A stretch of DNA of 64,000 nt, from positions 186,001 through 250,000 of the forward strand of contig NZ_BJHU01000057.1 of the NCBI RefSeq assembly GCF_005405905.1, given 5' to 3'. A program made the position numbers and the translations under genes. This DNA comes from Acidovorax sp. NB1 (GTDB taxonomy: Bacteria > Pseudomonadota > Gammaproteobacteria > Burkholderiales > Burkholderiaceae_C). The notes beneath the pieces were generated by a model. That model saw only the letters and a program-made list of their open reading frames with translations, did no database searches and was not told where the DNA came from. Within the stretch, counting starts at the first letter, position 1; each line of letters starts with the position of its first letter. Shown here one piece after another: positions 8,614-58,087 of this stretch.

Positions 8614-9206
8614 TGCGGGCCCTGGCCTGCGGTGCGGGTGGCCGCGATCAGCTGCTGCCGCAGCCCGGGCTCGGAGGTCTGGGGCGACAGCCAGATGCCG
8701 AAGAACAGGCGCGAGAACTCGGCATCGGCCACCTCGCCCACCACGCGGCCGCCCATCTTGAAGACGGCGCCTGCGCCGGGCTGGTACAGGCCCAGCAGGC
8801 GGTCGCCGGGCTTCACGTCCGGCAAGGCCGCCTGCAGTGCCTGCTGCCAGCGGGTGGCCTGCTGCGGCGTGAAGCTGCCCACGCGGCGCATCTCTTCGAT
8901 GGAGCGTTTGGCAATCGCCTCGGCCGTGAAGTTGCGCTGGTAGGTCAGCTCCAGCGCCAGCGGGTGGGCGCTGTACTGGTCGGCGTCAAAACCGGGCTGG
9001 GCCCACAGGCGCGCGCGGTACACCTCAAAACCCAGGAAGCGCATCGTGCCTTGACCCACCAGGCGCGCGCCCGCCAGCGGTGCGCTGGCGCCAGGCGACG
9101 CGCTCGCTACCCCTTCCGTCCCCTGCGCCATTGCAAAATTTGAGAAAAAAACAGCCTCTGCGCCTGCTAGCAAAGCGCCAATAGCTATGTTTTTTATAGC
9201 AATCAT
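8610..9206 (-). CDS. Chalcone-isomerase-like exported protein
   Basis: This 198-residue protein has a signal-peptide-like N-terminus with probable cleavage after AMA near residue 27. A chalcone-isomerase-like domain follows (GTMRFLGFEVYRARLWA, then LELTYQRNFTAEAIAKRSIEEMRR and FSRLFFGIWL). Bacterial members are usually non-catalytic for chalcones and may bind fatty acids. The start codon overlaps the cyclopropane-synthase stop (ATGA), which fixes it. The first roughly 25 codons after the start coincide with a copy of the dispersed repeat (9143-9200). That DNA is AT-richer than the rest of the gene and gives an odd signal peptide with a Glu and two Phe in its core. Confidence 0.85.
   Translation of the reverse strand: MIAIKNIAIGALLAGAEAVFFSNFAMAQGTEGVASASPGASAPLAGARLVGQGTMRFLGFEVYRARLWAQPGFDADQYSAHPLALELTYQRNFTAEAIAKRSIEEMRRVGSFTPQQATRWQQALQAALPDVKPGDRLLGLYQPGAGAVFKMGGRVVGEVADAEFSRLFFGIWLSPQTSEPGLRQQLIAATRTAGQGPQ
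9143..9200 (-). repeat. Dispersed ~55-bp repeat, copy inside a signal-peptide coding region
   Basis: Read on the minus strand it carries the ordered blocks ATAGCTATTGGCGCTTT, then GGCGCAGAGGC, then a T-run. These are the same blocks in the same order as the intergenic copies at 32266, 33616, 35736, 42930 and 47300. It begins 3 bp inside the chalcone-isomerase-like gene and encodes the signal peptide core. Confidence 0.75.
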
Positions 9207-10447
9207 GCTTTCACCAGGGTGTACTGCACCAGGTCGATATTGCGCATGGCGAACGCTGCCTCGCAGTAGGCCAGGTAGAACTCCCAGATGTGCATGAAAC
9301 GCTCATCAAACCCCAGCTGCAAGATCTGTGTGCGCTGCGCCAGGAAGCGCTCGCGCCAGCGCTTGAGGGTTTCGGCGTAGTCCTGGCCAAACGCGAACTC
9401 GTCCACCACGCGCAGGCCCGCCGCCTCGGCCTCGCGGCGGAACTCGCGCGGGCAGGGCAGGCAGCCGCCAGGGAAGATGTACTGCTGGATGAAGTCGGTG
9501 GAGCTGATGTAGCGCTCGAACAGGCTGTCGTCGATGACGATGCTCTGGATGCAGGCCTTGCCACCGGGTTTGAGCAGGCGGTTCACCGACTGGAAGTAGG
9601 TGGGCCAGTATTCGCGGCCCACGGCCTCGACCATCTCGATGGAGCAGATAGCGTCGTAAGGGCCGTCCTGGATGTCGCGGTAGTCCTGCAGGCGCAGGTC
9701 GGCACGCTCAGCCACCCCCTGCTGCGCCATGCGCTTTTGCGCAAATGCGAGCTGTTCGGTGGAGAGCGTCACGCCTGTGAGGTCGGCGCCGAATTCGAAA
9801 GTCGCCATCTCGGCCAGCGCGCCCCAGCCGCAGCCGATCTCCAGCACCCGGGAGCCTGGCTCCACCCCCGCCATGCGCAGGGCGCGGCGCACCTTGGCAT
9901 GTTGGGCCTTGCGCATGTCGCCGCCCGCATCGCCCTCAAACCAGGCGGACGAGTAATTCATCGTATCGTCCAGCCAGAGTTCGTAGAACGCATTGCCCAG
10001 GTCGTAGTGGGCGTGGATGTTCTTCTGGCTGTTGGTGCGGGTGTTGCGGTTGAGCAGGTGCTTGATGCGGTACAGCAGCCGGCCCGCCCAGGTGCCGTAG
10101 ATCACGCCTTCCACCTGCTGGCGGTTGGCGATGAAAAGCTTGAGCAGGTCGGTGAGGTGCGGCGTGGTCCAGTCACCCGCGATGTAGCTCTCGGCAAAGC
10201 CGATGTCGCCGGACTTGAGTGCGGCACTGCACACGTTCCAGTTCTTGAGCGTGATGGCGGCCGAGGGGCCATCGCCGTGCCCGAAGTGCTGCAACGTGCC
10301 ATCGGGCAGCTGCACCGTGAGGTGGCCGTGCTGCAGGCGCTGCAGCAGCTTGAGCGCCGTGCGGGCGGCAGCGGGGGTGCCTGCGGGCAGGGCCAGCGCG
10401 GTGCGGGGGGCGGTGGTGGAGTTCATGGCGGCGTTCTCGTTCGTCAT
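9203..10447 (-). CDS. Cyclopropane-fatty-acyl-phospholipid synthase family methyltransferase
   Basis: This 414-residue SAM-dependent enzyme transfers a methyl or methylene group onto double bonds of membrane phospholipid acyl chains. The SAM motif VLEIGCGWGALAE is clear. Other family blocks are HYDLGNAFYELWLDDTMNYS, where substrate and bicarbonate site residues lie, and the CSIEMVEAVGREY segment. Length is normal. ATG 10447 is 5 bp after the DUF1365 stop; ATG 10426 is an alternative and neither has a strong ribosome site. Because it sits with an FAD oxidoreductase and DUF1365, it may make a modified fatty acid (methylated, furan or cyclopropane) rather than plain cyclopropane lipids. Confidence 0.92.
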   Translation of the reverse strand: MTNENAAMNSTTAPRTALALPAGTPAAARTALKLLQRLQHGHLTVQLPDGTLQHFGHGDGPSAAITLKNWNVCSAALKSGDIGFAESYIAGDWTTPHLTDLLKLFIANRQQVEGVIYGTWAGRLLYRIKHLLNRNTRTNSQKNIHAHYDLGNAFYELWLDDTMNYSSAWFEGDAGGDMRKAQHAKVRRALRMAGVEPGSRVLEIGCGWGALAEMATFEFGADLTGVTLSTEQLAFAQKRMAQQGVAERADLRLQDYRDIQDGPYDAICSIEMVEAVGREYWPTYFQSVNRLLKPGGKACIQSIVIDDSLFERYISSTDFIQQYIFPGGCLPCPREFRREAEAAGLRVVDEFAFGQDYAETLKRWRERFLAQRTQILQLGFDERFMHIWEFYLAYCEAAFAMRNIDLVQYTLVKA

Positions 10448-10452
10448 GGAAA

Positions 10453-11256
10453 TCAGCGGGTCACGATGGATGCAGGCGCCTCGGGCTTGCGGTGGAAACG
10501 CACGCGCTTGAGCCACAGCTGCAGCGCGTGCCAGTGAATGCGGGCAATGATGGCCAGCGTCATGGCGGGGTAGCCCCAGAGCGCCTGGCGCAGGGTCTGT
10601 GGGGTGATGGCTTGCAAGGTGCCGCTCACGCTGGTCTGGATGAGGGGGCCGGTGTCGTCGTCGTGGTCAATGCGGACCACGGTACGGCCAGCATCCTGCG
10701 CACCAACTTCGGTGCGCATGAAGCGGAAGCGGTAGCCGCCACTCACCGCGCAGAACGGCGACACATGGAACACCTTGCGCGCCTGCTGTTCCACGCCGTA
10801 CTGCGGCGCGTCCAGCAGGTAGCAATGGCGCTCGCCAAAGGTGTTGTTCACCTCGACCACGATGGCACGCAGGGGGCCGTCCGCGCGGTGGCAGTACCAG
10901 AAGCTCACAGGCTTGAAGGTGTAGCCCAGCACGCGCGGGTAGCAGTGCAGCCAGACCTCGCCGGTGGCGTCGGTGATGCCTTCGGTGCGCAGCAGCTCGT
11001 CCAGCCAGGCCAGCGCACCGCCCTGCGCGGCGCTGCGTCCGTCGCCGTGGTCCACGTCATGGAAGCTGATGGCGCCGCTGCGGTTCACCGCCAGCGGTGT
11101 GTGTGTGCTGGTGTGTGCGCCGCTCAGGCCGCGCATCGGCAGCATGAGGAAAAAAGTGGGGTAGGCAAATGCATGCCGCCGGGGCCGCAGCCGCGTGTGG
11201 CGCACCTGGCCGAAGCCGATGAGGGGCGCTGCGGGGGCGGCCGGGGCGTGGCTCAC
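10453..11256 (-). CDS. DUF1365 family protein
   Basis: This 267-residue protein starts with GTG at 11256, overlapping the FAD oxidoreductase stop (GTGA). The N-terminus GFGQVRHTRLRPRRHAFAYPTFFLMLP and the block CYPRVLGYTFKPVSFWYCH are hallmarks of DUF1365. The ending contains IARIHWHALQLWLKRVRF. The family has no proven reaction but nearly always accompanies a cyclopropane synthase and an FAD-dependent amine-oxidase-like protein, as here. The open frame continues upstream through the oxidoreductase gene, which is a shadow frame, so the overlap start is preferred. Confidence 0.9.
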   Translation of the reverse strand: MSHAPAAPAAPLIGFGQVRHTRLRPRRHAFAYPTFFLMLPMRGLSGAHTSTHTPLAVNRSGAISFHDVDHGDGRSAAQGGALAWLDELLRTEGITDATGEVWLHCYPRVLGYTFKPVSFWYCHRADGPLRAIVVEVNNTFGERHCYLLDAPQYGVEQQARKVFHVSPFCAVSGGYRFRFMRTEVGAQDAGRTVVRIDHDDDTGPLIQTSVSGTLQAITPQTLRQALWGYPAMTLAIIARIHWHALQLWLKRVRFHRKPEAPASIVTR

Positions 11257-12563
11257 GCAGCCTCCGCCAAAGGGGCTGGCAGGGCTGCCCGCAATTGCTC
11301 GGCCACGGCCAGGCCGGATTTCAGCCCGTCTTCGTGGAAGCCGTAGCCCGTCCAGGCTCCGCAGAACCAGGTGTGCTGCTGCCCTTGCAGCTTGCCCACC
11401 TGCTGCTGCGCGCGGATGGCGGTCATGTCGAACACCGGGTGGGCGTATTCGTAGCTGCCGATCACGTGCTCGGGCGCAATGTCGCGCACCGGGTTCAGCG
11501 ACACCACCACGGGCTGCGCAAAAGGCACGGGCTGCAGCTGGTTGATGAGGTAGTGCAGGCACACGCGGGCAGACTCGCGGCTGCGCTGCGGGGCGCGCTC
11601 GTAGTTCCAGGCGGCCCAAGCGGCGCGGCGCTGGGGTAGCACAGACGTATCGGTGTGCAGCACCGCGCGGTTGGCCTGGTAGCGGATGGCGCCGAGCACG
11701 GCGCGCTCCTGGGTCGTGGGCTGGGCCAGCAGCGCGAGCGACTGGTCGGAGTGCGTGGCCAGCACCACCTTGTCAAAGTGTTCGGTATGGCCTGCGGTCA
11801 CCACGCGCACACCGGCGGCATCGCGCTCGATGCGGCGCACGGGGGTGTTCAGGCGCTTGTCGGCAATGCCCGCCACGATCTTGTCCACATAGTGGCGCGC
11901 GCCGCCGGACACCGTCCACCACTGCGGCCGGTTGCTCACCTGGATCAGGCCATGGTTGTGGCAGAACCGGATCATGGTGGCCACGGGGAACTTCAGCATC
12001 TGGTCGGTGGGGCAGCTCCAGATGCAGCCCAGCATGGGCAAGAAGTACCAGTCGCGGAACGCGTCGCCAAAGCGGTGCTCGCGCAAGAAGTCCGAGAGCG
12101 GCTGTGCCAGAGCCGCCTCGGCCTGCTGCTCGGCAATGCGCGTGCAGAGCTTGTTGAAGCGCAGCAGGTCGCGCAGCATGCCCAGAAAACGCTGGTTGAC
12201 CAGGTTGGAGCGCTGGGCAAACACGGTGCTGAGGTTGGTGCCGCTCCATTCCAGGGCTCTGCCGACGCCCAGGGCTGCGGGCACTTGCACCGAGAACGAC
12301 ATGTCGGATTTGGCCGTCTTCACGCCCAGCTCGGCCAGCAGGCGGATCAGGTTCGGATAGGTGCGCTCGTTAAACACCAGAAAGCCGGTGTCCACGCCGT
12401 GGGTGACAGGGGTGCCAGACGCATCGGGCAAGGTGACATCCACGGTGTGGGTGTGCCCCCCGAAGTAGTCGCCCGCTTCAAACAGTGTGATGTCCGCTTG
12501 GCCACGCAGCTGATGCGCGACCGACAGCCCAGAGATGCCGGAGCCGATGATGGCGATTTTCAT
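11253..12563 (-). CDS. FAD-dependent oxidoreductase (NAD(P)-binding/amine-oxidase family)
   Basis: This 436-residue flavoprotein begins with the dinucleotide fold IAIIGSGISGLSVAHQL (3-19), followed by the second strand ending in ITLFEAGDYFGGHTHTV. The C-terminal FAD-contact block is WFCGAWTGYGFHEDGLKSGL. It belongs to the group found beside DUF1365 and cyclopropane synthases; homologues are proposed to desaturate or oxidise modified acyl chains. It is the first gene of the eight-gene minus-strand cluster. The 244 bp upstream contains a 10-bp inverted repeat (12600-12692) but no promoter I can call firmly. Confidence 0.9.
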   Translation of the reverse strand: MKIAIIGSGISGLSVAHQLRGQADITLFEAGDYFGGHTHTVDVTLPDASGTPVTHGVDTGFLVFNERTYPNLIRLLAELGVKTAKSDMSFSVQVPAALGVGRALEWSGTNLSTVFAQRSNLVNQRFLGMLRDLLRFNKLCTRIAEQQAEAALAQPLSDFLREHRFGDAFRDWYFLPMLGCIWSCPTDQMLKFPVATMIRFCHNHGLIQVSNRPQWWTVSGGARHYVDKIVAGIADKRLNTPVRRIERDAAGVRVVTAGHTEHFDKVVLATHSDQSLALLAQPTTQERAVLGAIRYQANRAVLHTDTSVLPQRRAAWAAWNYERAPQRSRESARVCLHYLINQLQPVPFAQPVVVSLNPVRDIAPEHVIGSYEYAHPVFDMTAIRAQQQVGKLQGQQHTWFCGAWTGYGFHEDGLKSGLAVAEQLRAALPAPLAEAA

Positions 12564-12599
12564 GGCCGGCCCCCTCTGGCCGGCGCCTGGAATAAAAAG

Positions 12600-12692
12600 G
12601 TTGCGAAGCGTCCCGAAACGAATAAGAGAGGGAGGGAGGAGAAGCGCTCCAGGAGGTCAGTCGGAACCCGGGGGCCCGAAAGGCTTCGCAAC
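12600..12692. repeat. Perfect 10-bp inverted repeat upstream of the lipid cluster
   Basis: The arms GTTGCGAAGC (12600-12609) and GCTTCGCAAC (12683-12692) are perfect complements separated by 73 bp, in the leader of the FAD oxidoreductase gene. The space between is purine-rich (a GGGAGGGAGGAG-like tract). It could form a long hairpin in the 5' leader or be a looped operator. Function unknown. Confidence 0.45.
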
Positions 12693-12807
12693 GTTAAAAC
12701 TGTACGCCGCGCAATCGTCTTGCGCAATGGATAGAGTGCGGCCATCTGCGCGAAGTTCCAGAGTACGTCTGGATTTTTTTTAAAGAAACGTAAAGAAGCC
12801 ATGGCGC

Positions 12808-13392: not shown

Positions 13393-13482
13393 GGTGTGAT
13401 GTGCAGCAGGCGGTCGATGGGGGCAATTTAACCGCTTCATTATTTTTTGTCCACATGAGTTTTTATTTGTACTGAACGGTAT

Positions 13483-13499
13483 ACGCAGTACTCCTGCGT
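13483..13499. repeat. Short palindrome upstream of the peroxidase gene
   Basis: ACGCAG and CTGCGT flank a 5-bp centre, about 90 bp upstream of the glutathione-peroxidase start in an AT-rich, promoter-like stretch (13430-13480). A candidate regulator site or small hairpin; nothing in the window names its binding protein. Confidence 0.3.
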
Positions 13500-13645
13500 T
13501 TGGATTCAGATTTCCGACATGGCGGCATGGATGACTCCGCCCGCCGCCCTGCACCCAGCCCCCGGGCAGGCGCACGCAGGCCATGCCTGCAAGGCACAAG
13601 GCCGGCAGGCAGACCAGGGGAAAAAGGGAAAGGAGGGGAGAAACG

Positions 13646-13672
13646 GCAGGCCACACCCGGGGTGCGGCCTGC
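13646..13672 (-). terminator. Rho-independent terminator-like hairpin after the HD-GYP-like gene
   Basis: On the minus strand, GCAGGCC and GGCCTGC close a stem that continues through a G-C-rich inner part with one G-U pair, followed by CGTTTCT. It begins 3 bp after the stop of the HD-GYP-like gene. The T-run is imperfect. Confidence 0.6.
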
Positions 13673-13674
13673 GG

Positions 13675-14886: not shown

Positions 14887-14995
14887 GGTGCTCGTTACAT
14901 TATCTAACGCATCCCACCCCGCCAAAGCCTTGGCCTACCGGGTGATTTCCCGGCTTTTCGGCCGAAAGAGTCCTCCAGAATGTAAGCGCCTGCTT

Positions 14996-18115: not shown

Positions 18116-18126
18116 CCTGATGCTCC

Positions 18127-19338
18127 TCAATTAGTAGCATTCAGCGCTTTACCATCGCGCGGTGAAGGCTGTTTTTGCTTTGAACTTTCGACTGCCGATG
18201 TCTGCACAGCCGCGCCTGGGGCTGCGGGGGCGGCAGCCACACGCACCAGATCGCCATCGTTGAGGAAGCCCGCGCCGCGCACGGCCACCGAGGCGTTGGC
18301 GTCCAGGCCGGTGAGCACTTCCACCCGGTCGGCCACGCGGCGGCCCGCCTGCACCTTGCGCTGCTGCACGCGCTGGTCGGCCCCCACCACAAACACATAC
18401 GAGAAGCCATCGCGCACCACCAGCGCCTCCTGCGGCACGGTGAGTGCATCGCTGGTGCCCAGCGCAAATTCGCCGCGCGCAAACATGCCCGCGCGGAAGT
18501 CGGCATTGGCGGGCAGGTCCACATACACCAGCGCATTGCGCGTCTGCGGGTCCACCGTGGGCGCAACCATGCGCACCGTGCCTTCGGCCGTGGCGCCGCT
18601 GGCCGCCGTCACGCTGACCTTGGCGCCCGGGGCGATGCGGCGCAGCTCGGTCGATGTGACTTCGGCACGCCACTCCAGGCGGCCTTTGCGCACCATGCGG
18701 AACAGCTCGGTGCCCGCGCCCACCACCGCGCCCACCGTGGCGGTGCGGGCCGAGATCACACCGCTGTCAGGCGCCACCACCTGGGTGTGCTTCAGGCGCA
18801 GCTGCTGTGCGTTCAGCGTGGCCTGGGCCGCTTCCACCCGCGCCTGGGCCGTCTTCTCGGCGGTGGTGAATTGCTGGATCTGCTGCTGGCTCAAGGCGCC
18901 CGTGGCCTGCAGCGAACGCGCGCGGTCGGCATTGGCCGCTGCCTCGGCCGCATTGGCCTGGGCTTCGAGCAGGCTCGCGCGCATCTGCGCCACATCGGCT
19001 TGCACGGTCTCGGCCGAGAAGGTGGCCAGCACCTGGCCCGCCTTGACCACGTCGCCCACGTTCACGCGCACATCGGTCAGGCGCAGGCCATTGCTCTCGG
19101 CGCCGATGCTGGCCTCTTGCCAGGCAGCCACATTGCCGTTGGCGGCCAGGCGCACCGGCACGGCGGTGCGCTGCGGCTGGGCCGTGCTCACCGTGAGCGC
19201 GGGGCGGGGCTGGCCCGCCTTGGGTTCATCGGCTGCGCGCGATGCGCCGGAGTACACCAGGGCGCCCCCCGTGGCCAGCACACAGGCGGCGATCACGGCA
19301 AAGGCGGTGGCAGAAAATTGAAAGCGTTGCTTTGGCAT
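18127..19338 (-). CDS. RND efflux periplasmic adaptor (membrane fusion protein)
   Basis: This 403-residue adaptor has an N-terminal membrane anchor or signal (FAVIAACVLATGGALVYSG). A lipoyl-like beta region is split by a coiled-coil hairpin (about 95-160, with repeated Ala/Gln heptads), then beta-barrel and membrane-proximal domains follow (VPQEALVVRDGFSYVFVVGAD). It links the permease to the outer-membrane factor. The last about 20 codons are encoded by a dispersed repeat copy (18130-18180): the tail SSKQKQPSPRDGKALNATN is unlike adaptor termini and AT-richer than the gene body. It lies 11 bp upstream of the permease start. Confidence 0.92.
   Translation of the reverse strand: MPKQRFQFSATAFAVIAACVLATGGALVYSGASRAADEPKAGQPRPALTVSTAQPQRTAVPVRLAANGNVAAWQEASIGAESNGLRLTDVRVNVGDVVKAGQVLATFSAETVQADVAQMRASLLEAQANAAEAAANADRARSLQATGALSQQQIQQFTTAEKTAQARVEAAQATLNAQQLRLKHTQVVAPDSGVISARTATVGAVVGAGTELFRMVRKGRLEWRAEVTSTELRRIAPGAKVSVTAASGATAEGTVRMVAPTVDPQTRNALVYVDLPANADFRAGMFARGEFALGTSDALTVPQEALVVRDGFSYVFVVGADQRVQQRKVQAGRRVADRVEVLTGLDANASVAVRGAGFLNDGDLVRVAAAPAAPGAAVQTSAVESSKQKQPSPRDGKALNATN
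18130..18180 (+). repeat. Dispersed repeat copy forming the 3' end of the adaptor gene
   Basis: On the plus strand the blocks run TAGTAGCATTCAGCGCTTT, then CGCGCGGTGAAGGC, then TTTTTG. This matches the intergenic copy at 47300-47350 (AGCGCTT, GCGCGGTGAGGCC, TTTTT). On the opposite strand it encodes the C-terminus of the adaptor. Confidence 0.75.
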
Positions 19339-32236: not shown

Positions 32237-32265
32237 CTGTCAGCAGTCCTGGACTGCGGATTCAG

Positions 32266-32322
32266 AGCTTTTTAGGCCGTCTCCGCGCATCCAGTGGCGC
32301 TTTAAAGCTATCAAAAAATGAG
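32266..32322 (-). repeat. Dispersed repeat copy between convergent genes
   Basis: On the minus strand it has the blocks TGATAGCTTTAAAGCGC, then GGATGCGCGGAGACGGCC, then TAAAAAG. It fills the gap between the response regulator gene and the end of the small membrane peptide gene and may act as a bidirectional transcript end. Confidence 0.8.
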
Positions 32323-32451
32323 TTATTTGGGAGGCTGATTGGCGTCGTCGCTCGGCAGCTCGCCCTTCTTGCGGCCCGAAAACATGGTCCACCAGACGAT
32401 GGCCACCAGCACCACCAGCGCCAGCAGCGCTTCAAGCAAAATCAGCCCCAT
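32323..32451 (-). CDS. Small single-helix membrane protein
   Basis: This 42-residue peptide is almost all one membrane helix (MGLILLEALLALVVLVAIVWWTMF) followed by a charged tail (SGRKKGELPSDDANQPPK). It has the positive-inside arrangement of a real small inner-membrane protein. An AGGGGG-like ribosome site lies upstream on the minus strand. Its ATG shares bases with the ATG of mltA on the other strand (CATG at 32449-32452). No function can be assigned. The helix plus tail pattern, and the stop lying exactly at the edge of a repeat, argue that it is genuine. Confidence 0.6.
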   Translation of the reverse strand: MGLILLEALLALVVLVAIVWWTMFSGRKKGELPSDDANQPPK

Positions 32452-33607
32452 GACCCTGAACCCCCTGCGCCTTGTTGTGACGGCGCTGATTGTAGGAACG
32501 CTGGCCGCCTGCTCCACGCCGCCCGCCCCAAGCCCCTCCCGCCCCGGGGCCATCCCGCCCCCGCCGCCTGCCAGCACCGTGGTGCTGCCCGGCGACACCG
32601 GCCCGCTGCCGCCGCCGCTGGCGCAGCCCAAAAGCCGCTGGGTCCCCGTGCGCTGGGCCGAGCTGCCGGGTTTTGGCGATGACGCACTGCACGAAGCCTG
32701 GAACGCCTGGATCAAGAGCTGCGAGCGGCCCGTGCCCCCCTTCACCGCGCTGTGCAGCGACGTGCGCCAGCTGAGCATTGCCACCGCCGACGAGCAGCGC
32801 GCCTGGCTCGTCGCCCGCCTGCAGCCCTACCGCGTCGAGGCCACCGACGGCAATTCCGAGGGCCTGCTCACCGCCTACTACGAACCCATGATGGACGCCG
32901 CGCGCCAGCCCGGCAACGGCTTCACCGTGCCCGTCTACCGCCTGCCTGCAGGCTTTGGCGCACGCAAGCCCTGGTACACGCGCCAGCAGATCGAGACCCT
33001 GCCCGAGGCCCAGGCCGCACTCGCGGGCCGCGCCATCGCCTGGCTGCGCGACCCGGTCGAATCGATGGTGCTGCACATCCAGGGCTCGGGCCGGCTGCGC
33101 ATTGCCGAGGCCGACGGCAGCGTCACCACCGTGCGCGTGGCCTACGCGGGCACCAACGACCAGCCCTACCAGAGCATCGGCCGCTGGCTGCTGGACCAGG
33201 GCTACACCCGCGACGCCACCTGGCCCGGCATCCGCGCCTGGCTGGCGGCCAACCCCCAGCGCACCAACGAGCTGATGTGGACCAACCCGCGCTACGTGTT
33301 CTTCAAGGAAGAACCCCTGGTGGGCATGGACGCGGGCTTTGGCCCCAAGGGCGCACAGGGCGTGCCGCTCACGCCCGGCCGCTCCATCGCGGTAGACCGC
33401 CAGAGCATCCCCTACGGCACGCCCGTGTGGCTGGCCTCCAGCGGCCCGCAGGTGCAACTGAGCCGCATGGTGCTGGCGCAGGACACGGGCAGCGCCATCC
33501 TGGGCGCGGTGCGCGCCGACTACTTCACCGGCTGGGGCCCCGAGGCGGGCGACATTGCCGGGCGCCTCAAGCAGAACCTGCGGCTGTGGGCGCTGTGGCC
33601 AAAGTAG
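32450..33607 (+). CDS. mltA: Membrane-bound lytic murein transglycosylase A
   Basis: This 385-residue outer-membrane lipoprotein cleaves peptidoglycan between MurNAc and GlcNAc, forming 1,6-anhydroMurNAc. The lipobox is TLAAC with Cys21, followed by a Pro/Ser-rich tether. The MltA domain includes LLTAYYEPMMDAAR, VLHIQGSGRLRIAEADG and the C-terminal 3D domain, with the catalytic Asp in LAQDTGSAILGAVRADYF. ATG 32450 gives the correct lipoprotein signal; the earlier in-frame ATG at 32339 would place the signal internally. There is no strong ribosome site, and the divergent small gene begins on the same four bases. Confidence 0.93.
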   Translation: MTLNPLRLVVTALIVGTLAACSTPPAPSPSRPGAIPPPPPASTVVLPGDTGPLPPPLAQPKSRWVPVRWAELPGFGDDALHEAWNAWIKSCERPVPPFTALCSDVRQLSIATADEQRAWLVARLQPYRVEATDGNSEGLLTAYYEPMMDAARQPGNGFTVPVYRLPAGFGARKPWYTRQQIETLPEAQAALAGRAIAWLRDPVESMVLHIQGSGRLRIAEADGSVTTVRVAYAGTNDQPYQSIGRWLLDQGYTRDATWPGIRAWLAANPQRTNELMWTNPRYVFFKEEPLVGMDAGFGPKGAQGVPLTPGRSIAVDRQSIPYGTPVWLASSGPQVQLSRMVLAQDTGSAILGAVRADYFTGWGPEAGDIAGRLKQNLRLWALWPK

Positions 33608-33615
33608 TGCCCAAA

Positions 33616-33665
33616 ATGCCCCTCTGCGCGCAACCATCAAGCGCTGATAGCTATTAAATCAGGAG
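33616..33665 (-). repeat. Dispersed repeat copy upstream of the DUF2868 gene
   Basis: On the minus strand it has TAATAGCTATCAGCGCTTGATG, split here as TAATAGCTAT and CAGCGCTTGATG, then GCGCGCAGAGGGGC and a T-run. Its end supplies the CAGGAG ribosome site of the DUF2868 gene. Confidence 0.8.
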
Positions 33666-33670
33666 CGTTC

Positions 33671-35728
33671 ATGCGCGTGACCGAGCCCCAGCTGCGCACC
33701 TTGCTGCTGGCCCAGGCCATCGAGCAGGCCGACACCCGGCACACCCTGGTCAGCCCGGTGGAGCTGCAGGAAGCCACGCGCAGCGCCGTGGCCGCAGCCC
33801 GGGCGCGCGGGCTGCCCCGCGTGGGGGTGGCCGAGGTGATGCTGGAGCGCGCCACCACCATCGCCGACCACGCCAGCGGCCGCGACAGCACCGTGGCTGC
33901 GCTGCACGCCCTACACGCTCCACACACCCAGCAGCCCGGCGCAGGCGGGCTGGGGCCCTGGGTGGCGCGTGGCCTGCCGCTGGCCGCGCTGTTGCTGGGC
34001 CTGGCCATTGACCGCATCAGCAACGCGCACCGGGTGGACCTGCTCTCACCCCCGCTGCTCACCGTGCTGGCCTGGAACCTCACCGTCTACCTGCTGATCG
34101 CCTGGCGCGCATGGCGCCCGCCCTCGCAGCCCAGCGCATGGCTGCAGCAGGCGCTGCGCCCCCTGGGCAACCCCTTTGGCCGTGCCGAGCGGGGACGCGG
34201 GCTGGCCGCGCGCATTGCGGCCGACTTTCACCAGCGCTGGTGGGCCCATGCGGCCGACCTGCTGCAACAGCGCGCCGCGCGGGTGCTGCACCTGTGCGCC
34301 GCTGCCTGGGGCGCGGGCATTGCGCTGTCGCTGCTGTTGCGCGGGTTGGTGGTGCGCTACCAGTTTGGCTGGGAGAGCACCTTTCTCGATGCCACGCAGG
34401 TGCACGCTATTGTCTCGGTGCTGTTTGCACCGCTGACCCTGCTGCTGGGCCTCGCGCCCTTCACGCTGCAGGAGATCGCGGCCACGCAGAACTTTGCGGG
34501 CGAAAGCGGCGTGGCGGGCATGGCAGGTGGGGGCGGCGCCGCAGGCAGCCGCTGGGTGGGGATGTACGTGGGCTTGCTGCTGCTGGCCGTGGTGCTGCCG
34601 CGCCTGGCCCTGGCCGCCTGGGCACGCTGGCGCGAACACCGGTGGCAGGGCCACATCGATCCACAAGGCGCCGCCTTTGACACACTGCGCGCCAGCCTGC
34701 CGGGCGACCTGGTGATCGGCCTGCACGGCCCGCAAGCCCAAGCCCAGGTGCTGCTGGGCGCCAGCCTGCAGACCCCACAGGGCGACCGGCTGCAGTGGGT
34801 GGCCGATGCCAGCGCCCCCGTGGATGCCGTGCTGGTCTGGACCCCCGACCCGCTCCCGCTCGCCTGGCAGGCCGCCCCCCGCGTGGTGCTGCGCTGGGAA
34901 GACTTTGGCGCCAGCTGGGTGCTGGAGCCCACGCTGTTTGACCGGCTCAGCGCAGCCCTGCCCGCCCACCACCATGCCCTCGCCCGCCTGTGTGCCGCCT
35001 GGGTGGAGCGCAACGAGCAGCGTTTTGGCCAGGCCCTGCTGGCGCTGGCGCAGCACCTGCGCGCCTGTGCCGCACTCACCCGCCTGCCGCCAGACGATGC
35101 CGCCGCACGCTATGCCGAGCAGGTGCACGCGCTGGACGCCACGCTGCGCGCCCTGCATGGCGAGCCCGCCACGCCAGCCCCCCACCCGCTACCAGCGGCA
35201 CACCTGGCCCCGCCGCCCACCGCACCACGCCGCCTCGATGGAGCGGCCCTGGCCCTGGGCACCTCGGCCGGGGCCGCTGCGGGCGCTGCCGCCGGGGCCA
35301 AGGCGGGCGCGCTGATCGACCTGGGCACGGGCGGCCTGACCCTGGGCGCAGGCACGGCCCTGGGCGCGCTGCTGGGCGGCACCGCGGCCTGGGTGGTGCG
35401 ATCGCTGCAAAAGAAGGACGCAGGGCGGCAGGACCTGCTGCAACACGCCGCCGAAGCGGCCTGCAGCCACTACCTCGCCATCGCCCACCAGCAGCGCATG
35501 CCACCGGACGATGCCCACCCCTGGGCTGCGCGCTGGCGCGCCGAGGTCACCGGCACGGTGGCCGCCCACGGCACCGCACTGACCGCCGCGCTGGAAGACG
35601 GCGCCGATGCACAGGCCCTGGTGCCGCTGCTGCGCACGGAGCTGATGGGTATCCTGCAGCGCAGCTGTGTGGCCGAGGGGAGCGGCGCGGCCCCAGCAGG
35701 CTCACCGACAGGCTCATCGGCAGGTTGA
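33671..35728 (+). CDS. DUF2868 membrane protein with Gly/Ala-rich C-terminal extension
   Basis: This 685-residue protein has an N-terminal DUF2868-like part (TEPQLRTLLLAQAIEQADTRHTLVSP) and membrane helices at about 97-145, 209-236, 246-265 and 295-320. After a globular region comes an unusual tail (about 515-580). It is rich in glycine and alanine with GAAAGAAAGAKAGALIDLG and LGAGTALGALLGG, a glycine-zipper pattern like that in DUF3482 GTPase-type proteins, which are usually the adjacent partner gene. No Walker A motif is present here and no GTPase gene follows. The start has CAGGAG contributed by a repeat copy. Function unknown. Confidence 0.82.
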   Translation: MRVTEPQLRTLLLAQAIEQADTRHTLVSPVELQEATRSAVAAARARGLPRVGVAEVMLERATTIADHASGRDSTVAALHALHAPHTQQPGAGGLGPWVARGLPLAALLLGLAIDRISNAHRVDLLSPPLLTVLAWNLTVYLLIAWRAWRPPSQPSAWLQQALRPLGNPFGRAERGRGLAARIAADFHQRWWAHAADLLQQRAARVLHLCAAAWGAGIALSLLLRGLVVRYQFGWESTFLDATQVHAIVSVLFAPLTLLLGLAPFTLQEIAATQNFAGESGVAGMAGGGGAAGSRWVGMYVGLLLLAVVLPRLALAAWARWREHRWQGHIDPQGAAFDTLRASLPGDLVIGLHGPQAQAQVLLGASLQTPQGDRLQWVADASAPVDAVLVWTPDPLPLAWQAAPRVVLRWEDFGASWVLEPTLFDRLSAALPAHHHALARLCAAWVERNEQRFGQALLALAQHLRACAALTRLPPDDAAARYAEQVHALDATLRALHGEPATPAPHPLPAAHLAPPPTAPRRLDGAALALGTSAGAAAGAAAGAKAGALIDLGTGGLTLGAGTALGALLGGTAAWVVRSLQKKDAGRQDLLQHAAEAACSHYLAIAHQQRMPPDDAHPWAARWRAEVTGTVAAHGTALTAALEDGADAQALVPLLRTELMGILQRSCVAEGSGAAPAGSPTGSSAG

Positions 35729-35735
35729 ATATCGC

Positions 35736-35790
35736 CTTTTTTGGCCTCTACCGCCTGATGGTATTACCCTGATAGCTATCAAAACAGGAG
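35736..35790 (-). repeat. Dispersed repeat copy after the DUF2868 gene
   Basis: On the minus strand it has TGATAGCTATCAGGG, then a variant middle, AGAGGCC and AAAAAAGG. It sits between the DUF2868 gene and the convergent secreted-protein gene. Confidence 0.75.
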
Positions 35791-35803
35791 TGAATCACTG
35801 CCC

Positions 35804-42840: not shown

Positions 42841-42929
42841 GCCCTAACGCCTTGTTACCTTGCAGGGCGCCCGCCCACATCGCGCCCCTCACCTTGGGGA
42901 GGGGGTCTGTTCTGCCGGGATGACATGCC

Positions 42930-42982
42930 AAAACAGGCCCTTCCGCGCGTCCATCAAGCGCCACTAGCTATCAATAAAAAGC
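42930..42982 (-). repeat. Dispersed repeat copy downstream of lrp
   Basis: On the minus strand it has TTGATAGCTAGTGGCGCTTG, then GACGCGCGGAAGGGCC and TGTTTTGG. It starts just after the lrp stop codon, so it may double as the end of the lrp transcript. Confidence 0.8.
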
Positions 42983-47234: not shown

Positions 47235-47265
47235 AGTTCTGCGAACCAGCAGCACCTTTGCAGAG

Positions 47266-47290
47266 AAGCCCGCGCTTGCGCGGGCTTTTT
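47266..47290 (+). terminator. Rho-independent terminator after the oxidoreductase gene
   Basis: AAGCCCGCG and CGCGGGCTT form a 9-bp stem with a CTTG loop followed by TTTT. It lies 31 bp after the stop codon and directly before a dispersed repeat copy. Confidence 0.9.
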
Positions 47291-47299
47291 TACTATCAA

Positions 47300-47350
47300 A
47301 ATGAGAGCTATTAGCGCTTATCCAATGCGCGGTGAGGCCGATTTTTAACG
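47300..47350 (+). repeat. Dispersed repeat copy between terminator and yajC
   Basis: Blocks on the plus strand are AATGAGAGCTATTAGCGCTTA, here AATGAGAGCTATTA then GCGCTTA, then AATGCGCGGTGAGGCC and ATTTTTAACG. It is the clearest intergenic reference copy for the family in this window. Confidence 0.85.
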
Positions 47351-50932: not shown

Positions 50933-50949
50933 CCCGCTAATATCTGCCT

Positions 50950-53304: not shown

Positions 53305-53374
53305 CGGTAACTTCCAACCGCCTGCCTCAGAACCCCAGGCAGGGCCCCGTGCCTTCGCCTCGAGTTTCTCGGCT

Positions 53375-54559
53375 TCAGCCTCGCACCAGACGCTGAAACA
53401 GCCCCCCGGGCAGACGGGCCACGCTGCCCGCCAGTTCCAACTCCAGCAGCATCACCTGCAGCGAAGCTGTGTCCATGCCGGTGCGCGCCACCAGCGCATC
53501 CAGGCCCAGGGGATCAAACCCCAGTGCCGCGAGCACCGGGTTGTTTTCGGGCTCACTCTCTGTGTGGGGCAGCTCCACAGCAGCCCCATCACGCTCAGCG
53601 GGCATGTCCGGCAAGCCCGGCACTGTGGTGGCAGGGAGCCGTAGCTCCTCCAAGACATCCTGCGCAGACTCGACCAGTTTAGCCCCCTGGCGGATCAGGG
53701 CGTGGCAGCCCCGAGACTGGGGGGCATGGATAGAGCCGGGAATGGCAAAAACCTCCCGGCCCTGTTCGACCGCCATCCGCGCCGTGATCAGGGAGCCCGA
53801 GGCCAGCGCAGCCTCGACGACCAGGGTTCCTTGGGACAGGCCCGAGATGATGCGGTTTCTCTTGGGGAAATTGGGCGCCAGCGGGGGCGTGCCCAGAGGA
53901 TATTCACTGACCAGCAGCCCCCGGGCTGCAATGCGGCGGGCCAGGTCGAGGTTCTTGCGGGGGTACACGCGGTCCAGGCCGGTTCCCACCACAGCGATGG
54001 TGGCCGCAGCCGAAGCGTCCGCCACAGACGCATCCAGCGCGCCCTCATGGGCGGCAGCATCCACCCCCAGCGCCAGCCCCGACACGATCGTCAGCCCGGC
54101 GCCATGCAGCGACCGCGCAAAGAGGCGGGCGGTCTCCGCGCCCTGGGCCGTGGGGTTGCGGCTGCCAACCACTGCCAGGCAGCGATCACTCGGGAAAGGC
54201 TGGTGCGCCAGCAGATGCTCAGGCCCTGTGAGGTAGAGCATCAGCGGGGGGTCTTCAGTGTCCAGCAAGGCCTGCGGATAGCGGACATCACCCAGCGTGA
54301 CAATCGTGCGCGACGGTCTTCCCGGATCCGCGCCAAACAACCACTGGGCCGTGGTGTCCCACAAGGCCTGCCAGGCGGCAGGGATCTCACACAAAGCCCG
54401 TGCCTGGGCATTGGTCACACATTGCTGCAACGCCGCCTCGGACTGCTGGAAAATCGCTTGCGGGAGCCCGAAACGGGCCAGCAGCCGCCGCGCGGCGCCA
54501 TTGCCCACGCCAGGGGTCAGCGTCAAACGCAGCCAGGCGCCCAACTCTTCATGGTCCAT
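53375..54559 (-). CDS. dprA: DNA-processing protein A
   Basis: This 394-residue protein loads RecA on incoming single-stranded DNA during transformation. An N-terminal SAM-like part (LTPGVGNGAARRLLARFG) precedes the Rossmann core with VVGSRNPTAQGAETARLFARSL, GLALGVDAAAHEGAL and PLAPNFPKRNRIISGLSQGTLVVEA. A winged-helix C-terminus (LGLDALVARTGMDTASLQVMLLELELAG) follows. ATG 54559 is chosen because known DprA proteins begin at the equivalent of DHEELGAWLRL; an in-frame start 27 bp earlier is possible. It lies downstream of a LysM gene (85 bp), a frequent pairing in betaproteobacteria. Confidence 0.94.
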   Translation of the reverse strand: MDHEELGAWLRLTLTPGVGNGAARRLLARFGLPQAIFQQSEAALQQCVTNAQARALCEIPAAWQALWDTTAQWLFGADPGRPSRTIVTLGDVRYPQALLDTEDPPLMLYLTGPEHLLAHQPFPSDRCLAVVGSRNPTAQGAETARLFARSLHGAGLTIVSGLALGVDAAAHEGALDASVADASAAATIAVVGTGLDRVYPRKNLDLARRIAARGLLVSEYPLGTPPLAPNFPKRNRIISGLSQGTLVVEAALASGSLITARMAVEQGREVFAIPGSIHAPQSRGCHALIRQGAKLVESAQDVLEELRLPATTVPGLPDMPAERDGAAVELPHTESEPENNPVLAALGFDPLGLDALVARTGMDTASLQVMLLELELAGSVARLPGGLFQRLVRG

Positions 54560-54644
54560 GGGTTTCAATCCGCCCGGGAATAACACGGCGCTACCGCTTC
54601 ACACCAAAGCGGCGACACCCCTTCCGCGCCGGAGCGCGCATGGC

Positions 54645-55856
54645 TTACTTGGGATTGACGAGGCGATCGCCTACGCGCACGCCGTTGCGAATCTCAAGGA
54701 GCAGCGCATAAGACACGCGCTCGAAGGTGCGGAACACCATGGCCGTGCCGTTGACTTCGCTGGGCAGCTTGACCATCGCCTTGGACTTGTCGGTGGTGTC
54801 CTTGATGCGGTCGCCCTTGGTCATCAGGCTGAGCACATGGCCAGGCTCCACACCGTCCTCCGAGCCCATGTTGATGGCCACCACCTGATTTTGCGCAGCG
54901 TAGGCCACAGCCGAGCTGCCGTAGATGGACACCACACGGGCGTCCACCTCAACCTCGGGCGCCCGCGGCGTGTAGCTCATGAAGGCGCGTGCGGGTGCGG
55001 GCAGCAGGCGGTCACCCGCCTGGACTTCTTCCTTGGTGGCCGACAGGTCTACCGTGGCGGGCACGTACTCGGCGTTGTATCCGCCTTTGCCATTGGGGGT
55101 TTCTTCGAAGGATTCGCCACGCACCAGTTCGGCCTTACCCACGTACTGCGCTTCGTAGCCAAGCACTGCACCCGTCATCGGGTCCTTGAGGGCCACCGCA
55201 TTGCGGAAGACGCGGTAGTAACGCGGTTCACCAGCTTCAGACAGCATGGGCGAGGCGGCATCTCCACGCACATAGACGCGGTCACCCGACCCCATGAGCA
55301 CACGCTCGTCGGTCGTGGCGATCACGCGCGGGGCGCGCAGCAGTGTCTGTTCGTCCACCACCAGCGGCTCGACCAGGAAGGGCTCGATCAGGTGCGGCTT
55401 GAGGGTGGGGAGTGCGGAATCCATCAGGCTGTCGCTGCGTGTGCGTGGCGAGACGCGCACGGTCTCGGGCTCGCCGGTGCCGCCAGGGCGGCTGGTGCTC
55501 AGGCGGGCATAACCGCCGTCCTTTTCCAGATAGAGCGTCTGGCCCGGGAAGATCAAGTGCGGGTTGGGAATGGCCTTGAGGTTCATGCCCCAGAGTTCAG
55601 GCCAGCGCCAGGGGCGCTTGAGGTACATGCCAGAGATACCCCAGAGCGTGTCGCCGCGCTTGACGGTGTAGCTGTCGGGTGCGTTGGGCGCCAGCTCTTC
55701 GAGGGGCACGCCCCGCTCGGACACCTGCTGCGCCGTGGCGCGCTGGCTGCTGGAGATGGGGTAGTTCTGCGCCTGAGCCGGCATGACCAGCAGGGCGCCA
55801 GCGATGATGGTGAGCGCGCCCAGGGCGGTCCGCCGCACGCTGGTGAATGCCGTCAT
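54645..55856 (-). CDS. Exported LysM-domain protein
   Basis: This 403-residue protein has a signal peptide (LTIIAGALLVMPAQAQ, cleavage near residue 29) and a LysM domain at about 60-115 (YTVKRGDTLWGISGMYLKRPWRWPELW, NPHLIFPGQTLYL) that binds peptidoglycan. A long C-terminal beta-rich region of unknown fold follows. AAGGAA 6 bp upstream supports ATG 55856. It is divergent from def over 199 bp and is followed by dprA. A role in the cell wall, possibly for DNA-uptake pilus passage, is suggested only by the neighbour. Confidence 0.9.
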   Translation of the reverse strand: MTAFTSVRRTALGALTIIAGALLVMPAQAQNYPISSSQRATAQQVSERGVPLEELAPNAPDSYTVKRGDTLWGISGMYLKRPWRWPELWGMNLKAIPNPHLIFPGQTLYLEKDGGYARLSTSRPGGTGEPETVRVSPRTRSDSLMDSALPTLKPHLIEPFLVEPLVVDEQTLLRAPRVIATTDERVLMGSGDRVYVRGDAASPMLSEAGEPRYYRVFRNAVALKDPMTGAVLGYEAQYVGKAELVRGESFEETPNGKGGYNAEYVPATVDLSATKEEVQAGDRLLPAPARAFMSYTPRAPEVEVDARVVSIYGSSAVAYAAQNQVVAINMGSEDGVEPGHVLSLMTKGDRIKDTTDKSKAMVKLPSEVNGTAMVFRTFERVSYALLLEIRNGVRVGDRLVNPK

Positions 55857-55992
55857 GTTGTTCCTTTTCTCATGCATTGTGAAACGCCCCCTCACTGGCA
55901 ACCCGGCGCCTGCAGCATGCGGGCGCCCGGGTAACTACGTTACAAACCTTCTTAGATTCTCTGCTCAAGCCCTTGATTCGGCAACGATTATT

Positions 55993-56015
55993 GGCCTGCA
56001 ACCCTGCGGCAGGCC
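55993..56015 (+). repeat. Hairpin in the def leader
   Basis: GGCCTGC and GCAGGCC form a perfect 7-bp stem around a 9-nt loop, 40 bp upstream of the def start codon. No run of T follows, so it is not a normal terminator; it may affect def translation or mRNA stability. Confidence 0.4.
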
Positions 56016-56055
56016 GCAAAAGTGGCGAAAATAGCGACATCTTCTACCTGCAGCC

Positions 56056-56565
56056 ATGGCAATCCTTCCCATTCTCTGTTACCCGGACCCCCGGCTCCAC
56101 AAGGTCGCACGCCCCATCGCGGTGGTGGACGATCGCATCCGTACGCTGGTGGCCGACATGCTGGCCACCATGTACGACGCCCACGGGATCGGCCTGGCGG
56201 CCACCCAGGTGGATGTGCACGAGCGCCTGGTGGTGATTGATGTGTCCGAAGAGCGTGACCAGCCCCTGGTGCTGATCAACCCCGAACTCGTCTGGACCAG
56301 CGCAGAAAAGCACTTGAACGACGAAGGCTGCTTGTCCGTCCCCGGCATCTACGACGGCGTGGAGCGGTTTGACGCCGTGCACGTGAAGGCGCTTGACGCC
56401 CAGGGCGCGTCCCGTGTCATCGAGGCAGACGGCCTGCTGGCCGTGTGCATCCAGCATGAGATGGACCACCTGATGGGCAAGGTGTTTGTGGAATACCTCT
56501 CCCCCCTCAAGCGCAACCGCATCAAGACCAAGATGATCAAGCAGCAACGGGAGGCCCGCGGGTGA
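56056..56565 (+). CDS. def: Peptide deformylase
   Basis: This 169-residue metalloenzyme removes the formyl group from nascent peptides. All three motifs are present: GIGLAATQ (44-51), EGCLSVPG with Cys92, and QHEMDHLMG with His134, Glu135 and His138. Its stop overlaps the GTG start of the lipoprotein gene. It heads an operon with that lipoprotein, fmt (which adds the formyl group removed by this enzyme) and azlCD. Confidence 0.97.
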
Positions 56566-57080
56566 AGCGGGCAGCGCTCTGCGCCCTGTGGGGCGGCGGA
56601 GTGCTGGCGCGTGTGGCGCTCGCGGCGCTGGTGGTTCAGCTGGCGGGCTGTGCGCTTCCTGCCCGCGAACAGCCCGGCGCACTGCGCGCCGAGGTCCTGG
56701 CCCGCCTGGGCCCGCCCAGTGCCACGTTTGCACTGGCGTCGGGTGAGCGGCTGCTGTATTCCGAGCTGCCTGCAGGTTTTGAAGCCCACGCCCTCGACTT
56801 CGATGCCAGCGGCCGCCTGCTGCGCAACGAGCAGGTGCTGACGCAGGCACGTTTCGACAACCTTCCGCTCGGTGCCTGGACCCGGGCGGATGTCGAGCGC
56901 ACCTTTGGTGCCCCCTTGCGGGTGGAGCGCGTGGCACGGTTTGATGGCGACATCTGGACCTACCGCTTCCGCCAGAACTCCGACCTGCGCCTGGCCCATG
57001 TGCACCTCGACCGCCAGGGTGTGGTGCAGAAGGTGCTGTTCACCGACGAACTCCCCCACTTTGACAACGCACGCGACTGA
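56562..57080 (+). CDS. BamE/SmpA-like lipoprotein between def and fmt
   Basis: This 172-residue predicted lipoprotein uses GTG 56562, overlapping the def stop (GTGA), with GGGAGG upstream. The lipobox is QLAGC at about residue 30. The mature part holds two related segments, [24 protein letters not shown] and [26 protein letters not shown]. Each is followed by a LxxDxxGxV-type strand, a pattern seen in the BamE/OmlA fold. Two such units in one small protein is unusual. It is probably anchored to the outer membrane. A direct role in translation initiation is unlikely; the operon may simply be conserved. Confidence 0.8.
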
Positions 57081-57112
57081 GCGTGCCCCCAGATATCCGC
57101 ATGCAGCCATCC

Positions 57113-58087
57113 ATGAAAGTCATTTTTGCCGGCACCCCCGAATTTGCCCGCGTGGCGCTGGAGCGGCTGCTGGCTGCGGGGTTCACCGTCCCGCTGGTGC
57201 TCACCCAGCCCGACCGCCCAGCGGGCCGGGGCATGAAGCTGCAGGCATCGCCGGTCAAGCAGTGCGCGCTGGACCATGGCATTTCGGTGGCACAGCCGCG
57301 CAGCCTGCGCCTAGATGGCAAGTACCCCGAAGACGCCGCTGCCGCGCGCGACGCGCTGCTGGCCGCCCAGGCCGATGTGATGGTCGTGGCCGCCTACGGA
57401 CTGATCCTGCCGCAGTGGACCCTGGACATGCCGCGCCTGGGCTGCCTGAACATCCACGCCAGCCTGCTGCCACGCTGGCGCGGCGCGGCGCCCATCCACC
57501 GTGCCATCGAAGCAGGCGATGCCGAAACCGGCGTAACCATCATGCAGATGGATGCCGGGCTGGACACGGGCGACATGCTGCTCACCGAGCGCCTGGCCAT
57601 CACCGCCGACGACACCACGGCGGCGCTGCACGACCGACTGGCCCACCTGGGCGGCCGCATGATCGTGGAAACCCTGGAGCTGGCAGCATGCGGCGGCCTG
57701 CAGCCCGTGGCCCAGCCCCCCGAGGGCATCACCTACGCCCACAAGATCGAGAAGGCCGAAAGCAGCATCGACTGGTCCCAACCCGCCAGCGTGATCGGCC
57801 AGCGCATCCGCGCGTTCGACCCGTTTCCGGGCGCCAGCACCGAGTGCAGCGGCGAGACCATCAAGATCTGGAGCTATGTTATTGATAGCTTAAAAGGCAA
57901 TACAGACGCGCGCAAAGGCCTTGTTTTATCTGCAGACGACACCGGCGTGGTCGTGGCGTGCGGCGCGGGCACGGCCCTGCGCCTGACCACGCTGCAGCGC
58001 GCGGGCGGCAAGCGCCTGCCTGCGGCCGACTTCCTGCGCGGCTTTGCGCTGCAGCCCGGCATGGTGCTGGGCACCGCCACCGCATGA
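57113..58087 (+). CDS. fmt: Methionyl-tRNA formyltransferase
   Basis: This 324-residue enzyme formylates initiator methionyl-tRNA. The N-terminal Rossmann part starts [16 protein letters not shown]. The catalytic signature [16 protein letters not shown] with Asn-His of LNIHAS is present at about 110-125, followed by [11 protein letters not shown]. The C-terminal OB-like domain ([18 protein letters not shown] ... [14 protein letters not shown]) contains a dispersed repeat copy (57878-57930) that encodes [18 protein letters not shown]. That stretch is locally AT-rich and differs from typical family sequence. ATG 57113 begins the family start MKVIF; ATG 57101 is also possible. The gene overlaps azlC by ATGA. 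Confidence 0.96.
57878..57930 (+). repeat. Dispersed repeat copy inside fmt
   Basis: Blocks TTATTGATAGCTTAAAAGGC, then GACGCGCGCAAAGGCC and TTGTTTTATC run in the family order on the plus strand. It stays in frame within fmt, in the surface-exposed C-terminal domain. Confidence 0.7.

Follow-up and report, generated by a model that had tools for sequence, protein, structure and literature searches.

The 64,000-nucleotide stretch of Acidovorax sp. NB1 analysed here (the window; contig NZ_BJHU01000057.1, positions 186,001 to 250,000) carries eight copies of a 69-bp dispersed repeat, referred to below as the element. We tentatively prefer, at somewhat short of even odds, the explanation that the genome holds about 650 largely vertically inherited copies, which are DNA sites kept in place by selection for their recognition as DNA. 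Recognition as DNA is favoured over a role in RNA because the elements are neutral in orientation, their stem is weak in the genome of the window (G000), they are constrained in place and one of their arms has shifted.

All eight window copies match a single family model, R1, which was built from sequence only on 36 copies, six of the window copies among them. The two copies outside this training set, at 32258-32326 and 57873-57930, score 29.4 bits (E 3e-8) and 27.4 bits (E 1.3e-7), and a scan of the window with R1 at E<=1 gave no ninth copy. The grouping of the eight copies into one family, proposed in a first-pass annotation, is thus borne out, but the unit is longer than the 50-60 bp given there: in a column profile of 38 copies, the informative columns run, with sharp edges, between positions -14 and +54 relative to the G of GATAGCT. 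Since 30 of these 38 copies were picked by an exact pattern, the 12 fixed bases of that pattern are conserved in the profile by choice. Terminal repeats, a feature of miniature inverted-repeat transposable elements, are absent from the profile, and the flanks are unconserved. An alignment of 88 copies from several genera (A9; high scorers chosen out of 129 listed candidates) is ungapped across the 69 columns; a further alignment, A3, excludes two low-scoring window copies. On the GATAGCT strand, the consensus is composed of TRCT, about four free bases, WWTTGATAGCT, a variable triplet (NNN), AGCGCTT, a 7-base loop, an arm with a GCG core (AAGCGCT in most species sampled), a triplet, GGCC, two bases, a T-run and a weaker tail, which is the block order first described. 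Also in line with that description, the window copies occupy both strands (three plus, five minus) and are AT-richer than their surroundings, with a GC content of 0.39-0.51 versus 0.679 for the whole window; across the copies of G000 it ranges from 0.33 to 0.58, with a mean of 0.443. A chance origin is excluded, because GATAGCTNNNAGCGC occurs 56 times in the genome and its reversal not once. Similarly, a weight matrix made without copies from G000 and its relative G222 scores 141 sites in 1.264 Mb at 30 bits or higher, compared with zero when the sequence is reversed. Searched against Rfam, the window gave no match at the gathering score, and eight other loci (136 kb in total) gave just a tRNA and a C4 RNA, neither of them the element. 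The latter, a C4 antisense RNA (RF01695) at L349:8522-8609 in G128, a genome of another genus, is a possible prophage sign.

The estimate of about 650 copies per genome is an extrapolation from 151 copies in 1.264 Mb sampled of the 5.49 Mb of G000, the sample being made of stretches taken at regular steps, not chosen by matches, plus the window; a whole-genome search scored at least 150 matches. Overlapping matches and copies below 20 bits were dropped from the helix test and the arm counts described below, and two overlapping opposite-strand matches were dropped elsewhere. The distribution of the family was examined by searches for R2 matches in genus, family and order, with stricter filters. 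Within the genus, 40 of 47 genomes (G000 included) have at least 50 matches, up to at least 108, and G221 has 26, while six are element-poor (G200 0, G207 0, G213 1, G216 2, G220 1 and G241 3). In the host GTDB family, 54 of 200 genomes have matches, 30 of these 54 having at least 16; in the order (150 genomes) only G000 and G128 do, both members of the host family. Profile scans of related genomes, the check suggested at the outset, recover the family, and the abundance in Comamonadaceae stated there agrees with exact matches, among the matches listed, in records named Acidovorax, Simplicispira, Giesbergeria, Paenacidovorax, Comamonas, Rhodoferax and Polaromonas, although the two Polaromonas matches extend over just half of the model. 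Of at least 116 exact-match loci, 80 were scored with R1. Exact-pattern matches in records assigned to other phyla or classes (for instance L074, L101 and L138) reach only 17-18 bits and are probably due to chance.

The eight window copies, with their R1 scores and their conservation in same-genus relatives, are the following.

Copy 1, 9134..9204, minus strand: flanked by genes for a CMAS-type methyltransferase and a chalcone-isomerase-like protein, both on the minus strand; 43.4 bits; in 6 of 6 relatives with both flanks.
Copy 2, 18120..18186, plus strand: overlaps the 3' end of an HlyD-type gene; 48.5 bits; in 6 of 6 relatives.
Copy 3, 32258..32326, minus strand: flanked by convergent genes, its NNN spacer longer by one base; 29.4 bits; in close relatives only.
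Copy 4, 33603..33670, minus strand: occupies the gap between an MltA gene and a DUF3482/DUF2868 gene; 53.7 bits; in 7 of 7 relatives with flanks.
Copy 5, 35727..35794, minus strand: between convergent genes; 40.9 bits; in 6 of 6 relatives with flanks.
Copy 6, 42920..42979, minus strand: 3' of an AsnC-type regulator gene; 47.3 bits; in 5 of 5 relatives with flanks.
Copy 7, 47289..47349, plus strand: directly behind a GC-rich terminator-like hairpin with a T-run; 48.8 bits; in 6 of 6 relatives with flanks.
Copy 8, 57873..57930, plus strand: in frame within fmt (57113-58087); 27.4 bits.

Comparison of the seven intergenic copies with seven same-genus genomes, in which both flanks were found 43 times, revealed the element between the flanks and on the same strand in 37 cases. 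All six misses concern copy 3, so that copies 1, 2, 4, 5, 6 and 7 are retained in 36 of 36 comparisons; copy 7 of G219 lies within a 3.5-kb gap. Copy 3 was found in G222 and, by eye, at L189 and L200 (G209 and G228), and its site in six rich relatives shows about 920-1060 bp between the flanks and no element. This copy is a lineage-specific gain or a case of differential loss.

The retained copies are also constrained in sequence. Between orthologous copies, excluding those scoring under 15, the near-identical pair G214/G215 and fmt, conserved columns differ in 396 of 3042 cells (0.130), about three times less than the variable columns (1100 of 2574, 0.427). Some traits are specific to a site and maintained in different species, namely CATAGC or TATAGC for copy 1, and CTCCT, a Shine-Dalgarno motif on the other strand, in 6 of 6 relatives at copy 2 (where GCTCCT is retained in all six) and in 6 of 7 at copy 4 (GTCCT in G234). 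Such persistence argues against a wholesale replacement of copies. Both observations also speak against the idea that the elements are neutral remnants of an old repeat burst, harmless near gene ends, whose constraint would be only apparent, a product of how the sites were chosen and of occasional gene conversion. The free change of the variable columns, and a clade devoid of copies with no obvious replacement at the sites examined, would suit such remnants, which we nevertheless regard as the least probable of the explanations considered.

A second feature of the family is a change of a hairpin arm. In G000, the arm is AAGCG in only 2 of 149 copies and [CG]GCG in 137; the matrix free of G000 and G222 copies gives a similar count (3 and 129 of 141). 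G222, which is 93% identical to G000 over one window piece, has AAGCG in 0 and [CG]GCG in 9 of 10 arms, and both arms of A. kalamii are [CG]GCG. Elsewhere AAGCG and [CG]GCG number 14 and 0 of 31 in G128, 4 and 0 of 12 in P. caeni, and 8 and 0 of 9 in G215, and [CG]GCG appears as a minority form in G218 (3 and 2 of 7), G187 (4 and 2 of 6) and S. metamorpha (3 and 2 of 7). The same shift is seen at orthologous sites: copies 1, 2, 4, 6 and 7 carry [CG]GCG in G000 and, where readable, in G222, and AAGCG in 22 of 26 other readings. Copy 5 is an exception, since other species lack AAGCG there too.

One clade nearly lacks the family. On a tree of Fmt with its linker removed, the element-poor genomes G213, G216, G220 and G241 group together (0.989) and are nested among rich species (enclosing node 0.900). 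The gaps of G220 at copies 1, 2, 3, 4 and 7 measure 85, 46, 94, 53 and 100 bp, versus 114, 96, 147, 70 and 100 in the window, and copies 5 and 6 gave no comparable pair. There is thus no constant 69-bp difference, and precise insertion or excision was rejected. Copy 3 is uninformative on loss, since the rich relatives lack it as well; at copies 1, 2, 4 and 7, G220 shows shortened or eroded gaps and no clean removal, with a possible remnant at copy 7, where the gap lengths are equal, and a retained Shine-Dalgarno end at copy 2. Of the other two poor genomes, G207 lies far from the genus core on the Fmt tree and G200 is not in it; their poverty could reflect separate loss, ancestral absence or misplacement.

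Copy 8 differs from the others in that it encodes part of the linker of methionyl-tRNA formyltransferase (Pfam). Six same-genus relatives keep GATAGC at this place, with a clear R1 score only in G234 (36.4; the others 13.6, 13.6, 7.3, 5.8 and -4.2). Among further fmt loci, 25 of 26 were readable. In element-rich genomes of other genera, 10 of 13 sites score 19.5 to 51.9, while of the remaining three G003 scores -9.6 with GATAGC kept, and G128 and G023 show nothing. None of the 11 genomes poor in or free of the element scores above -33, and G221 (26 matches) retains GATAGC and scores -6.4. The span here is 36 codons in genes that have the element-like sequence, and also in 8 of 13 that do not. 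Since no insertion scar is visible, the change, in either direction, was not a simple insertion or excision of 69 bp.

Gene context was assigned in the G000 sample with a home-made gene caller (1135 genes). As anticipated in the first-pass annotation, the copies lie mostly between genes and at gene ends: 128 of the 151 are intergenic, 21 lie inside called coding sequences and 2 at edges. They are enriched in convergent gene pairs (41 elements in 149 pairs) relative to tandem ones (79 in 772; p=1.7e-7), whereas divergent pairs hold 8 in 153 (p=0.067 against tandem), and about 11% of gene 3' ends, roughly one in nine, carry an element. In G128, 31 copies in 400 kb follow the same direction, on few copies (7 in 46 convergent, 19 in 220 tandem and 1 in 43 divergent pairs). 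Compared with GC skew, element strand in G000 gave 60 of 100 (p=0.057). Some copies may in addition serve as ribosome-binding sites. Judged by their sequence, window copies 2 and 4 could do so: the minus-strand end of copy 2 reads AGGAG (18127-18123), upstream of the start codon of an AcrB-family gene (18115), and the plus strand of copy 4 has AGGAG at 33661-33665, upstream of an ATG at 33671. Donation of a Shine-Dalgarno motif as a general rule was rejected: a strong motif is found in 4 of 14 start-adjacent copies and in 14 of 137 others (p=0.066), and the case is clear only at these two window copies.

A rival explanation is an RNA element, in which the long hairpin on the GATAGCT strand, ending just before the T-run, would act as an intrinsic terminator or 3'-end stabiliser. 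The helix comprises 13 bp (G4-C36 to T16-A24), with 78.7% of cells paired in A9. Doubly changed cells in A9 number 41, versus a shuffled mean of 29.6 (none of 500 shuffles was as high, and slid versions of the helix gave 9 to 35), and the covariation score was reached by 5 of 500 shuffles. Two further counts, 4 doubly changed pairs and 16 pair types, did not exceed the shuffles, so that three of five measures lie above nearly all shuffles, which themselves ignore relatedness. Tested as a whole, the helix is significant in G128 (p 0.002) and in same-genus copies (p<=0.0005), with slid controls not significant, but neither in the named set (p 0.11) nor in G000 (p 0.13), where the triplet alone reaches p 0.02. 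Mean fold z is -0.74 in G000 versus about -2 in three other sets, and RNAalifold on the G000 copies found three pairs and no covariation. The hairpin thus looks ancestral and, as far as these sequences tell, weak in G000; the inner GCGC blocks can pair, as first suggested, but the stem that they belong to is degenerate in this genome. T-rich sequence follows the stem in 81 of 149 own copies, versus 39 on the other strand, and in 48 versus 15 of 119 in the named set; in G128 the counts are 7 of 31 versus 10 on the other strand. The orientation relative to transcription in tandem pairs shows no bias at all (39 same, 40 opposite). Finally, copy 7 lies behind another hairpin: a terminator-like hairpin with a T-run at window positions 47255-47290 precedes it, and the same arrangement is seen in L020, indicating that elements can sit behind existing terminators. 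A function in RNA therefore seems quite unlikely to us, and of the earlier wording, a REP-like RNA hairpin (REP, repetitive extragenic palindromic), it is the analogy with REP that stands, in copy number, 3'-end position and hairpin potential, rather than the RNA role.

The seven bases of the loop occur in two reverse-complementary forms: in G000, 37 of 149 loops are GATGGAY-like and 23 resemble the reverse complement (at most one mismatch), whereas the reverse and the complement of GATGGAY are each found 0 times in 149. The counts of the two forms are 22 and 6 among 119 copies of the named set, 6 and 6 among 55 same-genus copies, and 8 and 0 among 31 copies of G128. These flips are most simply explained if the segment between the palindromic arms inverts, through a cruciform or through template switching; the arms would then pair in DNA.

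Loops in both orientations would also suit a REP-type, non-autonomous mobile family, spread by a Y1 transposase of the RAYT type (REP-associated tyrosine transposase), the copies of which are now mostly fixed. Single-stranded hairpin intermediates would re-anneal and rewrite arms and loops, leading to concerted change and loop flips. Gene conversion by such intermediates would explain the arm shift together with the loop flips, and it is the main rival of recognition-driven change. A transposase gene of the kind that the first-pass annotation had suggested looking for is present. G000 and each of 12 same-genus genomes have at least one Y1_Tnp match (Pfam); in G000 it is the gene at G000:C21:271432-272133 (L249), which we take to be a RAYT, its neighbour at the loci inspected being presumably gltB. 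An R1 element lies over the RAYT-type stop codon at 4 of 12 same-genus loci (L246, L249, L250 and L252; weak at L249, with 18.2 bits), and inspection by eye of the 25 readable loci out of 30 showed a GCTATCA-like piece in the 3' flank at many of them. The limitation of copy 3 to close relatives also fits with mobility. This linkage is suggestive, but it concerns one orthologous locus and is weak given that an element is present at about 11% of gene 3' ends in any case.

Whether a genome has the gene does not, however, foretell whether it has the repeats. Across the family, 190 of 200 genomes encode a homologue of the G000 protein at E<=1e-20, some of these homologues being distant and most genomes giving a single match; within the genus 44 of 47 genomes do, including all six element-poor ones at 72-80% identity. 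The gene as driver through its presence or absence is not supported. The three genus misses are the element-rich drafts G230, G233 and G238 (82-90% complete). Outside these, G040 and G163 (74 and 70% complete) have 9 and 11 element matches and no homologue at E<=1e-20, and the element-rich G095 and G196 have only a distant one. Mobility of the REP type is further disfavoured by the lack of a GTAG or CGTC tag and of a strand imbalance between record halves. Hand counts by record halves, with origins not located, gave 15 plus and 17 minus, then 21 and 29, in G128 and 9 and 11, then 13 and 9, in G004; a replichore strand bias was rejected accordingly. Taken together, we consider a mobile family of this kind unlikely, and the persistence of the RAYT-type gene suggests a domesticated host function. 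Blocks resembling TTTGATRTGTCCCCAATTAA and TCTGACCCCAATTAAT lie downstream of the gene in many of the loci inspected (L240-L286) and resemble the ends of Y1-type units. The RAYT-type protein of G239 (L370) is 91% identical to that of G000, and window-region matches of G239 range from 80% (the longest) to 92%, a weak hint of a possible exchange between species.

REP sequences and bacterial interspersed mosaic elements (BIMEs) of enterobacteria and Pseudomonas resemble the element in being hundreds of short, imperfect, mostly extragenic palindromes near gene 3' ends on both strands. They bind gyrase or nucleoid proteins, and by analogy the placement of the element at transcription ends, especially convergent ones, may match that of such sites. 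REP/BIME units, however, are 20-40 bp long versus 69 bp here, and GTAG is hardly fixed in place in the element (commonest position in 25 of 149 own and 5 of 119 named-set copies; CGTC in 1 of 149). Paired inverted clusters typical of REPIN/BIME are also lacking, as 1 of 90 neighbour pairs lies within 200 bp and 3 within 500 bp. Unlike REP, the copies occupy orthologous sites in different species and, in the case of fmt, different genera, and their presence does not follow the RAYT-type gene. Since tag and clustering fail and the RAYT-type gene gives a mixed picture, the element is REP-like in manner and not a member of REP. Rickettsia palindromic elements, a palindromic repeat located in frame inside protein genes, recall copy 8 in fmt but differ in that intergenic copies dominate here. 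Correia/NEMIS, ERIC, RUP and BOX are short intergenic hairpin repeats with proposed effects on mRNA or regulation, several of which have terminal inverted repeats and TA duplications; unlike several of them, the element has no terminal repeats in its profile. These four are named in PMC3110155, which also describes the Beta-proteobacterial repeat element (BRE), the only named betaproteobacterial repeat that literature searches turned up. BRE is reported there in Bordetella, Polaromonas, Acidovorax and Delftia, mostly between genes and in part within them; in Bordetella it is 75-91 bp long with an average GC of 69.0% and has some tandem loci, and no genome has more than 29 copies. Judged by this description, BRE differs from a dispersed 69-bp element with a mean GC of 0.443 and about 650 copies. 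In the open-licence literature of PubMed Central, including term look-ups in PMC3733652, PMC12306157 and PMC2817692, a description of the element was not found.

Under selection for recognition as DNA, a trans-acting factor would recognise each site as DNA, and selection would retain the site because of this recognition. Candidates would be proteins that act on the nucleoid, on supercoiling or in recombination, and the conserved RAYT could itself be the factor if it has been domesticated. We infer protein binding, a change of the arm that would follow a change in recognition by the factor, and a decay of all copies that would follow its loss. Use of some copies as ribosome-binding sites and of one as coding sequence in fmt would be secondary. 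Several points weigh against this explanation. The binding factor is itself inferred and none was found; gene conversion could have caused the arm change, and this change is a shift in frequency, since [CG]GCG is also a minority form in G218, G187 and S. metamorpha. Purging of insertions from promoters would likewise lead to an enrichment at gene ends. The estimate of constraint is biased, because the sites were chosen for having a window element, and the restriction of copy 3 to close relatives shows that single copies are gained or lost. Moreover, the tree is that of a single gene, with the poor clade sister to G000 at only 0.530.

It is conceivable, if rather doubtful, that the roughly 650 sites form a chromosome-wide array, mostly fixed, co-evolving and read by a factor, which only superficially looks like a mobile repeat. 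If so, a shift in the preference of the factor would cause most sites to change the same arm in parallel, and loss of the factor would lead to erosion of the whole array. The family offers a natural experiment within one genus, with rich species, a nested, nearly empty group and a lineage with an altered arm, and a comparison of gene content across these lineages could point to the maintaining factor. It thereby bears on the long-standing question of whether short bacterial repeats are parasites or parts of the chromosome, and of what role they play.

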